NCBI GenBank assembly: GCA_001574975.1
Contig: KQ965835.1
Span: forward strand, 1 to 64,000
Origin: Gonapodya prolifera JEL478
Taxonomy: Eukaryota > Monoblepharomycota > Monoblepharidomycetes > Monoblepharidales > Gonapodyaceae
Length of the DNA stretch: 64,000 nucleotides
Direction: 5' to 3'
Shown one piece after another: positions 41,251-49,956 of this stretch (position 1 is its first letter; each line of letters starts with the position of its first letter). The notes under the pieces are model-generated. The model was not told the origin of the DNA and made no database searches. It saw nothing but the letters and a program-made list of their open reading frames with translations. Made by a program: the position numbers and the translations under genes.

Positions 41251-42668
41251 ATGGGCCCGTCCAAGGCGCTTCTCATCGGAATCAACTATCGCGGGACGGG
41301 GCACGAGCTGCGCGGTGCGTCTTAGTGCTCGTTCGCTGGGGATGTCCACGCTTAAGAGTTTCGTCCCTGACGGTGACTGATCCGATTCCCCCGACTGGCC
41401 AGGCTGCATCAACGATGTCAAGAACATGTCCGCGTTTCTTACTTCCAGGGCCGGTTACGACCCATCCAGAATGATCATCATGGTGCGTTGGCCCCTTGCT
41501 GAGACCCAAATCACAACACCCGTTTGACTCACCAACATCACATCGGTACGGCTCTCGTGACGTGATCGAAGACCGAAGATCACGCCCAGGAGGACCCCAA
41601 GTTCAATCCCACCGGTCGCAACATCCTCGCAGGGTTCCAGTGGCTCATTCGTGACGCGAGGCAAGGAGACCGGCTCTTCCTTCACGTGAGTTATGAGTTT
41701 CGACGTTTGCGAGTCTACATTTTTCACCCGGTGCCGATTTCCTCAAGTACTCTGGCCATGGGAGTCAAGTCAAGGACACGGACGGGCGGACCAGTGGAAT
41801 GGACGACACGATCGTCCCGCTTGATTATGAACAGAACGGACAAATAAACTCCGACGTAGGTCTCATGTTCGTCGTCTTTGCGGCACCACTGTCGAAGAGA
41901 CACAATACCCTTGCGAATGCACCTCAAGGTCCTCCACAAAGTCCTCGTCTCCCCCCTTCCCCCCGGCGTCCGCCTCACCGTCGTCATGGACTGCTGCCGT
42001 TCGTACCCTCCCCTCTCCCCTCCTTTCTCCCTGCCCGAATCGTAACACTCTCCCCTCCCGCCTACCTAGACTCGGGCTCCATCCTCGAACTCCCCTTCCA
42101 CTTCCGCCTCGACGCCCAGGGCAACGTGGTCAAAGTCGACCTCGTCAAACAGGCCATGTCGGCATTCACCGACATTGGAATCCTCATGAACCGCGGTATT
42201 CCGACGGGGAACAAGCTCCAGGCCGCGCAGGACCTGTTCCGAAACGTCAAGTCTATATGGAACGAGTTGAAGCACCCGGACGAGCAGCAGCAGCAGCAGC
42301 AGGCGAGCGGACCGGGTCTGGAGCAGGATGATTTCGGACACGTGGACTGGACGAGAGAGAATCGGGAGGTGTTTTGTTTCTCGGGGTGTTTGGACGAACA
42401 AACCAGGTACGTGTCCGCTCATCCCGCTTGCCCTGTACGGCTCCTAACTCGATCTCTTACCCCTACAAGCGCCGACGCTACTATCGGCGGCACGGCAAGT
42501 GGCGCCATGTCCTGGGCTCTGCTCACGACACTCCAACAGCAGCCGAATCAGACTTACTCCTCGATGCTCCAGAACACGAGGGGCTTGCTCGCGCAGAAGT
42601 ATAGCCAGGTGCCCCAGCTTAGTGTAGGCCGGGAGGGGGAGAATTTGGATGCGCCGTTCGCTCCGTAA
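41251..42668 (+). CDS. Type I metacaspase 1 (no prodomain)
   Basis: Cysteine protease of the caspase fold with Arg/Lys specificity in this family. Exons give MGPSKALLIGINYRGTGHEL, then GCINDVKNMSAFL, NILAGFQWLIRDARQGDRLF, and YSGHGSQVKDTDG with the catalytic His. Next comes LTVVMDCC joined across an intron to HSGSILELPF, giving the DCCHSG catalytic Cys. The C-terminal part has FCFSGCLDEQT, SADATIGGTASGAMSWALL and ends LDAPFAP. The intron inside the catalytic motif uses a GTTCGT donor. The long insert after DCCHSG contains a poly-Gln run of six codons near 42280. The start at 41251 is right at the core, so there is no Pro/Gln-rich prodomain. Its nearest relative in the window is metacaspase 2 at 45520-47002, on the opposite strand. 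Confidence 0.9.
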
Positions 42669-44835: not shown

Positions 44836-45519
44836 TACGGTCCCGACCGTACTGGTTCAACGCCAGAGAAATGAACGCAGGGAGAGATTGATCTTTTCAC
44901 ACCGAAAACTGCAACTGAAACTTGAATAAAATTTGCAAAAACAGCTTTCAAAACTTTGACATTTGATCATGGTGGATCACCACATGTGTAAACATGGGAG
45001 AGAATGATAGACGTTGTATCAATCTGCTGTGAGTTACATCTTTTGAGTGATTTTGCGGCCTTGGCCGTATAGTAGTCCGACATCTTGGAAGTTCGACGTC
45101 AACGGATGACAAAATGAATGATTTACAGCACCACGAATTTGATTTCTTTGGTAAGGTCGTCAGATAATGTAATAAAACACGGTATCGAGCTCCCCGTGAG
45201 GTCCTTAAAGTCACTGCCAAATCCCACCATGCTTCCACGAACAAACGCTCACAAAACGTTGAAACGATTAGAATGGGAATTTGGAGTGGTGGATCACCAA
45301 CCGGGGGGGGGGGGGGAAGCTAATTGAACATTTTGTCAACATGATTGACGTGAACTGAATAGCACCCTTTGAACAACTAAATGTTGACTTCTCTTCAATA
45401 AAAACTTCACAAGTGTAATAAAAACACGGCACCGAGCTCCTCGCTGAAGTCCTCTGAGAAGCTCCTGCCGCACAACAGCAGCGCAATACTACCCTCAGCA
45501 TCCATCCCATCCCACAGTC
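44836..45519. other. Intergenic, no recognised gene
   Basis: Only short frames. A poly-G run lies at 45303-45316. The right end borders the 3' end of metacaspase 2. Confidence 0.5.
45303..45316. repeat. Poly-G run
   Basis: About 14 G in a row in intergenic DNA, possibly variable in length. Confidence 0.9.
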
Positions 45520-47002
45520 TCAGAACGAGATAGTCTCATTCAAATTCGCATCCTGCCTCCCGACGCTCAACTGCGGGATCTGCGAATACTTGTTGGCGAG
45601 CATCTGCCTTGTATTGCGCAGCAGGTCCGCGTAGCTCTGGCGCGGGTTCTGGTGCAGGACGGAGAGGAGCGCCCAGGACATGGCTCCGACGGCCGTTCCG
45701 GCGATTTGGGTGTCGGCGCTAGAGAGGGGGAGGGATGGGGGATATGTGGGTGCGGTATGATGAGCGAACAGACGGGGAGAGGACGTATGGAAGGAGTACG
45801 GCTCACCTGGTCTGCTCATCCATACACCCCGAGAAGCAATACACAACCTTATTTTCATGGCCCCAATCATCCGTAAACTCCTCCTCGTCCTGGATCTGTC
45901 CTTGCCCAGCCGCGGCCTCAGCCGCTCTCTCCAGCCCCTTACTTCCAAACTTGTCGAGCTTCTCAAAATGGTGCCAGATATCCTTTACGTCGCTGAACAG
46001 GTCCTTTGCGGCCGCGATCCGGGTCTGCAGCGGTGCGTGCTTGTTGAATGCGATTTTGCCGTTGGAAATGGCGGATTTGGCGTATTCGGTGAATTTGTGG
46101 ACGGAGACGTTGCCTTTGGCGTCCGGGCGGAAGGTGTGGGGGAGTTCAAGCCTGAGGATGGCGACGGCGGACGGGACGGCATCAGGTAATGGTACGGCGA
46201 GGAGGGGGCAGTGGGAGGGTGAGAGAGGTCGCTTCGACTTACATGGTTCCGGAGTGGCAGCAGTCGAAAATAACAGTCAGTTTGACCCCCTGCGGAAGTG
46301 GGGACACGAGCATCTTGTGGAGTTGCTGTTCGGTGAGCAGTTTGGTCAGCATCACGGAGAAGCAAAGAAACTCGCGCTCGAGGAACTTACCGTGGAGGTG
46401 ATTTGACCAGCTTGCTTATAGTCAAGCGGAACAATCGTGTCGTCAAAATCGGGGTGGTCCGGTCTACTGTCGACGGGGTCTTGGACTTGGCTGCCGTGGC
46501 CGGACTTGAATATATCGAGTAGACCGGTAAGTAGTACACATTGGGGAACAGACTTGCCCGTCCTCGGACCAACAGGAACTCACGTAGTGAAGAAACAGGG
46601 TATCCCCGGGCCTGTTATCCCTTACCAGCCACCTGAACCCGGCAATGATGTTGCGGGAGTTTGGAAGGAAGTTTGGGTTGGTTGCATCTTCGGTCTTCCA
46701 TGAGTCGAGGGCGGGAACAGGAAGGGGTCACCGGGGGGGAGGGCAGGGACGATGGAAACAAGCGACTCACCATAACGACCATCTTGTCTTCGCTGTACCC
46801 ACAGCTCTGTGTCAGGTACTCGTGCATATGTGCGACATCGTTGATACAGCCTTGAAGTTCGTACACAATCGACCAGACCGTCAGCATCGCCCTTCCGAGA
46901 GCCGCCAAGCCCCGCCATATGGCCAATCGCCAGCCCACCTTTGAGTTCCTGACCAGATCCCCGGTAGTTGATTCCGATGAGGAGGGCTTTCTTGTTTCCC
47001 AT
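45520..47002 (-). CDS. Type I metacaspase 2 (no prodomain)
   Basis: Minus-strand paralogue of metacaspase 1. Exons give MGNKKALLIGINYRGSGQEL, GCINDVAHMHEYLTQSCGYS, NIIAGFRWLVRDNRPGDTLF, then SGHGSQVQDPVDSRPD with the catalytic His. DDTIVPLDYKQAGQI and LTVIFDCCHSGTM with the catalytic Cys follow. The next exon carries VSVHKFTEYAKSAISNGKIA and the long insert, then VVYCFSGCMDEQT. The last exon has ADTQIAGTAVGAMSWALL and ends LNETISF. Its coding order and intron positions parallel metacaspase 1, so both descend from one duplication. The two genes face each other about 2.85 kb apart. The start region is divergent from the MsrA gene, leaving about 370 bp of shared promoter. Confidence 0.9.
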
Positions 47003-47376
47003 TTATGTCCGGTGTCGGGTGTGTTGTGAAGAGCGAGGAGAGGGGAGAGTGGAGTGTATCCGGGCGATTGGCAAGAGCTGAGAAGATTGACGCGAGTGCG
47101 CACGAAAGAACGGGGAAGAGCTCGAGTTTGGTTGTCGCGGCAGGTGTTTTCAGTTCGATCCTCAGCAAAAAGGGACCACAAAGTATATTCGACAGCAGTG
47201 ACCCACGTTCCCAATATATATTGGCAAGTATGTATCTTTGCCTATGTTCTCGCAAACTTTCTCAACCACTATACGCTCGTCGGTGTGGCTGATGTGTTTC
47301 AACATCGTTACGTTACTGGGGCTGTGCCCCCCTTCGCTCATAAAACCGCTGGAACGCACTGCAATCCATTCCAGAA

Positions 47377-48357
47377 ATGAACGGAAACGCACCAGGCACA
47401 ACGATGGAGAAGGCAGTCTTCGGCATGGGATGATTCTGGTCGCCTGAGCCGGTCTTCGGCTCGTTGGTGAGTTGCTTCCCTTTTACTGGGCACCTTCTCG
47501 ACGTCAATCTCATCCCGCACACCGATACACCCCTGCAGAATGGCGTCGTTGCTACGCGTGTAGGCTACGCTGGCGGACGAACGCCCAACCCGACCTGTAC
47601 GTTTCAAATCGAGTGGAGCTCGGATCCGTGCTTACACTCACCCCCGCCAGACTACGACCTCGCGGACCACACCGAATCCGTCGAAGTCACATTTGACCCT
47701 TCCATTGTGTCATACGCCGACCTCCTCCGTGTCTTCTTTACCAACCACCACCCGGGGTACTCATACACGCCCCAATATGCCTCTCGTATTTTCGCTCTTA
47801 CCGACAAACAAGAGGCAGAGGCGATTGCTCAAGTCGATGCGAAACAGAAAACCAATCCCGAGGTGGCGACCGAGGTGTGGAGAATTGCCGGGATGCGCCA
47901 GGCCGAATTCGTGAGTTCCATCTCACTTCTCCCACACTCTGAGCTTGAGCTCGACGTCACCTCACTCTCGCATTAGTACCACCAGAAATTCTACCTCCAG
48001 GGGCACTCCTCGCTCTCCCGTCTCTTCCCCACGATCGAATCCACGCCTGACAAGTCCACGCCCTCCGATGACCCGCTCGTGAGCACGACGGCCGCCACGA
48101 AGATGAACGCGCTTGCGCATGGTGTGGTGGAGGACGTGGGGGAGTTCAGGCGAGCCCTCGACGACTGGTTCGAACAGGCACAGGCAAAACGGAAAGCTTC
48201 AGTGAGGTGGGAAGAGGCGGGCAAGGATGCGGTGGAGAGTGCACTAAAGCAGATTGAGGTTCGGAACCGACGCAAGGCGGCAGTGGCGAGTGGAAATGGG
48301 TCCGAGTACTTCTTCACCGAGGACAGCGGCGGTGGATCGTGTGGATGGCGCCGTTGA
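47377..48357 (+). CDS. msrA: Selenocysteine-containing peptide methionine sulfoxide reductase A (MsrA)
   Basis: Enzyme that reduces methionine-S-sulfoxide in free and protein form. Exons 47377-47466, 47539-47596, 47651-47910 and 47977-48357 join in frame to 262 residues. The family motif GCFW appears as G-TGA-F-W (TGA at 47431-47433, codon 19) inside AVFGMG-U-FWSPEPVFG. All other blocks are intact and in frame on both sides: VATRVGYAGGRTPNPTYYDL, HTESVEVTFDP, YTPQYASRIFALTD and YHQKFYLQGHSSLSRLF. So TGA most likely encodes selenocysteine at the nucleophile, and a SECIS-like hairpin lies downstream at 48418-48478. The protein has a C-terminal extension of about 110 residues after the core, with a late Cys (GGGSCGW). 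Read as a stop, TGA would leave an 18-codon peptide and no active site. It starts at the first ATG; codon 10 is another Met. Confidence 0.88.
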
Positions 48358-48417: not shown

Positions 48418-48478
48418 ATGAAGCCACGCCACCGAAACGCAAGTGCTCTTTGTCAGCAGGCATGGTGGCGGGACTGAT
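48418..48478 (+). promoter_or_regulatory. SECIS-like element in the MsrA 3' UTR
   Basis: Hairpin starting 60 nt after the MsrA stop. It has ATGA at 48418-48421 and TGAT at 48475-48478, which can form the non-Watson-Crick quartet with tandem G.A pairs. After ATGA a helix of 12 positions forms between AGCCACGCCACC and GGTGGCGGGACT with 10 pairs, seven of them continuous (CGCCACC with GGTGGCG). An AAA run lies 13 nt after ATGA at 48435-48437, where the unpaired adenines of SECIS loops sit. Inside the apical part TGCT and AGCA can form a small extra helix, as in form 2 elements. The lower helix is less clear. An AATAAA at 48608 places the hairpin inside the probable 3' UTR. Confidence 0.82.
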
Positions 48479-48978
48479 TCGCGTACATACTATTGACGAA
48501 GTACGTTCTGTATCAGTTGAGCTGTCGAAAAGTGTATGCACTTGATCGTCATTAGGCTTTCTATTCTACCGTACTTGTGCGGGTCGAACGTGATATTTTA
48601 CCTTGTCAATAAAAAAGATGTCCACGTTTGAAGATGAGTCGCAATCATCGCTATCCTTCACTGACGATTGAGAGCGGTCAGGCATCAGAGCAGAAGCATC
48701 AAAGAATTTCGGTGTGCCATCACGAGAGCTCATCAGGTTTCAAGATCGAATCGAACGCAAGCTAAAATTCCCATTTCCCAGCCGCAGGCATCCGTTATTC
48801 AATGCATGTCAATTGAGGATATAATAAGTTTTACGTAAACGACATTGAAGCTTTATCAGTATTTGATTTTGATGTTCGAGGTTGTAGATTATAAAGTCAG
48901 CCTTGTGCTCGCTCTCCTCGTACCAACGTACTCAACGCACCCGCGAACCAATGCTTCTCCTATATACTGTTCGCTGAC
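48479..48978. other. Intergenic, MsrA 3' end
   Basis: Contains the probable poly(A) signal AATAAA at 48608-48613. I see no gene. The right part lies downstream of the minus-strand MYND relic. Confidence 0.5.
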
Positions 48979-49956
48979 CTAGGCACTATCGCCCGTCTTC
49001 ACTGAGAATTCAATCTGCAGTGCACTTCTATCTTGGACAGAGCAAAATCGGGGCGCCTTCCGTTCAGGTCGAAGTGCACCATAATTGTCGTCAAAAGTTG
49101 ACTTGCCACAGTAGAGCTTGTGGACAGACCAGTCGGTCTTTTGGCAGGACGCGTAGCAGTATCGAACAAGCCCACAGCCTTTACACCGGCGCACGCTCTT
49201 TTGCTTCTCGCGGCCTCACAGTTCAACTGGGTACTCAGAATTTGCAAAAAGAAGTGGCCGGACAGTGTCACGAGCACAACGACTGATTCCGGTTGATACA
49301 AAGCTGATGACGTCCACCAGAGTATCGGTGAGACTCTTCCATTCCGAAGCGAAATCCCCCTGACTTGGGTGCGCTCTCTGCAAAGGGTCCGCCCCACGCG
49401 CTTTCAGTTTTGAATAATGTTTTGTGTCTTTTGATAGCCTCGCAGATTCTCCCCTGAGCTGGAACGGCCGAACGATCAATCGCCAAGACCAAGAGATGAA
49501 GAACAAAACCGAGTGCTTTGTCTTGCATAGACATCCCATATTGCGGAATTATCACATCGAGTGTAGAAATTCGCTCGCCATCGAGTATGATTACAGCGTC
49601 GCACATGTGTCGGAGCAAGTTGAGTTTGGAGGTGGCATATACCCTGTCCGAAAAGCCCCACAGGTTTCGACCAGAACCGCGACCACCATGAGGTTTCTCA
49701 AGAGACTAAACAGGGCGTCGTTTCGTTGAGCGTCCGAAGATGGAGACGACTGCTTTTTTGCCAACAAGACTTTTATAGTATCGATCGAGCCCAGTCTTTC
49801 GGCTATCTGCACCCCCAGTGGGGAGGAAGCGAGGAGAACAACGGCGCGTTGGGCATTTGCGGGGGCGAAGTGCTCAATTGGGAGACCGATCGCAAGTAAA
49901 CAGCTCCCGCCTGTAACCAACTTTCCTGGATTAGCTTCCTTGCACAGTCTTGCCAC
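48979..49956 (-). pseudogene. MYND-finger protein relic (copy 3)
   Basis: Minus-strand copy of the same family. The body (49956 downward) has AVVLLASSPLGVQIAERLGS and LMVVAVLVETCGAF, then a second frame with GFVLHLLVLAIDRSAVPAQG. The frame near 49210 ends in STQLNCEA, and the finger core RRCKGCGLVRYCYASCQKTD then WSVHKLYCGK lies in another frame (49194 downward). One frame change separates the first Cys and the finger, and another lies within the body, although an intron may explain the latter. The body resembles copy 2 (FLVTTPLGGELVGRI against VLLASSPLGVQIAERL). Likely not functional as it stands. Confidence 0.58.

Follow-up and report, generated by a model that had tools for sequence, protein, structure and literature searches.

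A predicted selenocysteine-containing MsrA in a probable chytrid fungus and the decay of its second copy

The MsrA of Clostridium oremlandii (CoMsrA) is natively a selenocysteine (Sec) enzyme, with Sec at the same catalytic place as the in-frame TGA described below; it contains no Cys, and its catalytic domain comprises residues 1-144 (PMC4479559). Among eukaryotes, the Sec-containing MsrA of the algae Ostreococcus and Thalassiosira is listed as a selenoprotein in a 2007 paper, in which the fungi then sequenced are described as being without selenoproteins and without Sec machinery (PMC2375036). In 2021 fungi were again said to encode no selenoproteins, and no U was found in the 134 fungal proteins so named (PMC8559351). 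Use of Sec has been described in nine early-branching fungal species, seven of which are Harpellales (PMC10386755, PMC10778597), and RNA reads show that selenoproteins and machinery are expressed in Zancudomyces culisetae, according to a 2025 paper (PMC12611240). Fungal selenoproteins are already known, and what is unusual in the present case is the within-genome view of decay. Among the literature matches listed, whose article bodies were covered in part, no title concerned a fungal Sec MsrA.

The window, which is the whole 64,000-nucleotide stretch of DNA analysed here, is part of contig C105 in an assembly of 47.6 Mb and 207 contigs, and it is this assembly that was searched for Sec machinery. 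The MsrA gene and the elements downstream of it are as follows.

47377..47466, + strand: MsrA exon 1, from the start codon to the first intron; holds the in-frame TGA
47431..47433, + strand: TGA in place of the catalytic Cys codon, codon 19, in GMG-U-FWSPEP; predicted Sec, also found in the C36 allele
47467..47538, + strand: intron 1, GT-AG, 72 nt
47539..47596, + strand: MsrA exon 2, NGVVATRVGYAGG...
47597..47650, + strand: intron 2, GT-AG, 54 nt
47651..47910, + strand: MsrA exon 3
47911..47976, + strand: intron 3, GT-AG, 66 nt
47977..48357, + strand: MsrA exon 4, with the YHQK motif, a C-terminal extension and Cys at residue 258; the TGA at its end is taken as the stop
48418..48478, + strand: SECIS-like element, with an ATGA quartet (48418-48421), a 13-nt helix strand, AAA (48435-48437), the return strand (48463-48474) and TGAT (48475-48478)
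48608..48613, + strand: AATAAA 3' of the SECIS-like element, observed at this position and possibly a poly(A) signal

The earlier note had placed a TGA at the catalytic Cys codon of a four-exon, in-frame MsrA gene, and this was borne out: the exons splice in frame to 789 nt and 262 residues up to the terminal TGA at 48355-48357, and the TGA at codon 19 is the sole internal stop in the translation. With X at codon 19, the protein matches PF01625 (PMSR) in Pfam with an E value of 4.4e-31, and it scores 94.0 bits against the NCBIfam msrA model TIGR00401, below the cut-off of 108.1 for that model. When aligned with 120 listed relatives of 1558 found, the G-C-F-W, GYAGG, DHTE and YHQK blocks are conserved at the columns looked at, and the TGA column holds Cys in 115 relatives and a gap in the other 5. 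It appears unlikely on these data that a lone stop, in a C105 copy that is otherwise unbroken, would by chance hit the catalytic one of the 262 codons. The only Cys in the protein is residue 258. Of the 120 relatives listed, 26 likewise have a Cys among their last ten residues, and Cys258 may therefore serve as the resolving residue. Elsewhere in the window, a Pfam-confirmed caspase-domain (metacaspase-like) gene (41697-42668, - strand) and a possible second caspase-domain copy without Pfam confirmation (46622-47002, - strand) lie upstream of MsrA, and a MYND-finger gene (48979-49194, - strand) lies downstream.

The SECIS-like element begins 60 nt past the MsrA stop and upstream of the AATAAA; 11 of its 13 helix positions pair, and its apical loop could accommodate a mini-stem. 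It satisfies, at 13 nt and 39 nt, the published limits for SECIS searches, namely NTGA, 10-13 nt, AA or CC, 15-39 nt and GA (PMC2375036, available part). In a scan of both strands of the 64-kb window with these limits and a pairing filter of our own, run without a known SECIS as positive control, 48418-48478 was the best of three lenient matches and the sole match at a stricter setting; the lenient scan of 200 simulated 64-kb strands gave 94 matches in total. With a first scorer, which was built after the candidate had been spotted by eye, the element scored 25.8, the second-best place on the + strand of the window 13.4, and the best other place in approximately 204 kb of other loci 17.6 (both strands, overlaps counted, window loci L005 and L036 excluded). 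In 100 simulated windows this scorer returned 34 matches of at least 18, one of which, at 26.8, was above the real element. No SECIS family was reported by Rfam in the MsrA 3'UTR, even at E values up to 10, and a microRNA family match there at an E value of 9.6 was taken as chance. The fold energy of the region is ordinary for its composition relative to shuffles (z 0.57 and -0.08).

The earlier note had predicted that the organism must possess Sec machinery, and had named the absence of all such machinery as evidence against its reading; most of the machinery genes are present in the assembly, with tRNA-Sec, SecS, eEFSec, an SPS with a TGA of its own and an SBP2-like domain found and PSTK not found. 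tRNA-Sec is represented by two alleles, both with a TCA anticodon (ARAGORN) and differing from each other at 2 of 86 bases; they score 74.0 and 72.9 bits, the gathering score being 47. SecS is located on C75 and C19, and eEFSec was matched in pieces on C5 (GTPase, third and fourth domains). C26 holds an SBP2-like domain of the L7Ae type, for which human SBP2 ranks first among solved relatives (E 1e-11, compared with 1.5e-4 for the best L7Ae), in a comparison confined to the domain and made with a hand-joined query carrying four wrong letters at its start. The second half of this domain runs into ankyrin repeats within one long open frame (L047:2616-4256), so a fusion of SBP2 with ankyrin repeats on C26 is possible; we know of no such fusion.

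The SPS gene on C1, spliced by eye and checked by script, reads FRLVDWAELKG-TGA-GCKVPQDDLYALLEG (FRLVDWAELKG-TGA-GCKVPQ) across an intron, with the TGA (L021:1241-1243) at the Sec site GUGCKVP immediately before that intron. Because a TGA again sits at a Sec site, SPS is a second predicted selenoprotein. The gene is split into exons, and its pieces score below the curated SelD cut-off. In its 3' region (L021:3109-3181) a looser SECIS-like fold, ATGA-AGTCTC...GAGACT-GAT, was seen by eye, with the same ATGAAG...CTGAT ends as the MsrA element; its z value is -1.92, and 9 of 200 shuffles were as good. The first SECIS scorer found nothing of at least 14 in this region, the best place reaching 10.1. 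Rfam listed three matches in the same region, all taken as chance; the best, to a viral 5'UTR family, scored 15.8 bits where the gathering score is 150.

PSTK was not found with PF08433, TIGR03575 or TIGR03574 in an exon-by-exon search of the genome run without a eukaryotic control. The single gene matched by PF08433 was rejected as PSTK, as it resembles KTI12 by eye; TIGR03575 gave no match, and none of the four weak matches to TIGR03574 (best E 0.101) was PSTK-like by eye. Because these searches work exon by exon, a divergent and split PSTK could be missed. SPS, eEFSec, the SBP2-like domain and the KTI12-like gene were each found once only, and since the last of these is also single, a single copy proves nothing.

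In two further families searched for selenoproteins, Cys was found at the sites that could be read. The GPx active site is readable at four loci out of five (C24, C147, C4 and C46) and holds Cys in each, and a SelW-like Rdx on C5 has YCPKCKW, that is, Cys; a weaker Rdx match on C152 is below cut-off. TGA flags at C41 and C5 were rejected as Sec codons, as by inspection the positions fall in introns.

A second copy of MsrA lies on C36, within a contig alignment of 2.7 kb at 81% identity (window 45262-47896). This copy is 84% identical to that of C105 over 47302-47896 and shares the TGA, but it is broken further on: relative to C105, exon 3 carries deletions of 5 nt and 1 nt, and neither exon 4, with its YHQK motif, nor the SECIS-like element is present. 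The claim of the earlier note that no other damage exists holds for the C105 copy and fails for this allele. Codons 1-77 and 93-129 (114 in all) were compared, those between the two deletions (78-92) and all beyond 129 being dropped, and dN/dS was 0.129 over these codons and 0.106 past the TGA (codons 20-77 and 93-129; p 5.6e-9), similar to the value of 0.111 for the SecS allele pair. The dS of the two TGA-bearing copies, 0.41-0.46, is similar to that of the allele pairs of Cys-type MsrA (0.414) and SecS (0.422), and C36 therefore looks allelic; since the TGA is common to both copies, it would predate the split of the haplotypes. A dN/dS of 0.106 past the TGA in turn indicates that the frame was under selection while carrying the TGA. 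In our judgement nothing speaks more strongly than this constraint against a pseudogene, which the earlier note had also held to be unlikely. Decayed orthologues in near relatives had been named there as contrary evidence, and C36 is in part such a case, yet its divergence from C105 shows long constraint of TGA-bearing sequence, and its decay looks later than that period.

Both haplotypes appear in the assembly (C24/C49, C41/C77, C75/C19 and C105/C36), at approximately 77-87% DNA identity and with dS near 0.42 where measured. Such divergence is very high for alleles, and a hybrid or a long asexual history is possible.

Overall, with machinery genes present, constraint past the TGA and a SECIS-like element downstream, the selenoprotein reading put forward earlier is supported, and we consider it very probable that the MsrA gene encodes a fungal selenoprotein in which UGA codon 19 is decoded as Sec, the insertion of which we infer from sequence. 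In this scheme eEFSec would deliver Sec-tRNA-Sec to the UGA, and the ribosome would be redirected by an SBP2-like protein that binds the 3'UTR SECIS. Sec19 would then be the nucleophile that reduces methionine-S-sulfoxide, with Cys258, the single Cys near the C terminus, as a possible resolver of the selenenic acid. Several observations weigh against this reading: the three PSTK models found no PSTK exon by exon, Rfam names no SECIS family in the 3'UTR, one of 100 simulated windows outscored the real element, the fold energy is ordinary, the C36 allele is decayed, and the four readable GPx loci and the SelW-like Rdx use Cys.

The TGA might instead be an ordinary stop, the gene being a pseudogene or a null that has persisted by chance, while a Cys-type MsrA elsewhere does the work. 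A Cys-type MsrA is indeed present on C41 and C77, with TGC at the catalytic codon, and the deletions and missing exon 4 of C36, together with the negative exon-by-exon search for PSTK with three models, would be in keeping with this explanation. However, the low dN/dS past the TGA, which is like that of the SecS alleles, an otherwise intact C105 copy of 262 codons with its stop exactly on the catalytic codon, and the SECIS-like element in the 3'UTR all speak against it, and we regard it as improbable. That the TGA is an error of sequencing or assembly in a Cys codon is scarcely credible, given that the TGA recurs in the copy on the other haplotype, which is 84% identical where the two match, and that an independent gene, SPS, has TGA at its own Sec site. 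A change of the nuclear code, by which UGA would be read throughout as Cys or Trp, had no evidence in its favour and is highly doubtful: the MsrA gene itself terminates in TGA, Cys-type MsrA uses TGC at the catalytic site, both in-frame TGAs found (MsrA and SPS) are at Sec sites, and tRNA-Sec is present.

The contig might also come from a contaminating eukaryote, in which case the gene would be that of a selenoprotein, yet a non-fungal one. The named MsrA relatives among the 120 listed of 1558 are archaeal, bacterial and insect, and SecS is just 47% identical to its best match, a fungal one, compared with 45-46% for coral and frog, both of which would be compatible with contamination. Against this, the best three of 34 matches of a CWF19-type protein encoded in the window, on the same contig, are from Cladochytrium replicatum, Zopfochytrium polystomum and Borealophlyctis nickersoniae (33-34% identity), and the best SecS match is from Hyaloraphidium curvatum, all of which we take to be chytrid-grade fungi. 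Neither set of listed matches included a near-identical protein, and the species therefore seems to be missing from the database searched. The host is probably a chytrid fungus on this evidence, and contamination seems quite unlikely.

With Sec insertion at codon 19 as the preferred reading, the state of the alleles can be considered. The SecS copy on C75 has Lys (AAG) aligned with residue 284 of human SepSecS, which we take to be the PLP lysine, and the C19 copy has Thr (ACA) at this site (L025:2301-2330 on C19 versus L024:2126-2155 on C75), so that the C19 copy is likely a null allele. Taken with the MsrA copy on C36, this substitution suggests decay of Sec genes on some of the haplotypes. 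We tentatively raise the idea, to which we would not give even odds, that the Sec trait is being lost allele by allele in this fungus, in which an intact copy each of MsrA and SecS persists. Loss of Sec is usually inferred from comparison between species; if the idea is correct, it would be visible here as heterozygous nulls within one genome, and through the broken alleles the process of loss may be directly observable.

Finally, in comparison with known systems, CoMsrA (PDB 4lwk and relatives) is the best solved relative of the present protein (E 4.3e-39), and the alignment extends beyond the catalytic domain (1-144) to chain residue 173. CoMsrA is bacterial and has no Cys, whereas the fungal protein has Cys258, a spliced gene and a SECIS-like element of eukaryotic type; with a TGA at the Sec place and Cys258 present, it departs from the 1-Cys type of CoMsrA, which has a catalytic Sec and no other Cys. 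The Sec MsrA of Ostreococcus and Thalassiosira is eukaryotic, like the one predicted here, but algal. The SPS of this genome, like SPS2 (SEPHS2-type), has TGA at GUGCKVP, with one copy found and only the looser SECIS-like fold in its 3' region. Most of the fungal selenoproteins described by Mariotti et al. in 2019 are reportedly without a consensus SECIS, whereas the MsrA element fits the published limits. If it does encode a Sec MsrA and a Sec SPS and carry a consensus-like SECIS, this chytrid-like genome would broaden the occurrence of the Sec trait and supply a fungal SECIS for testing.
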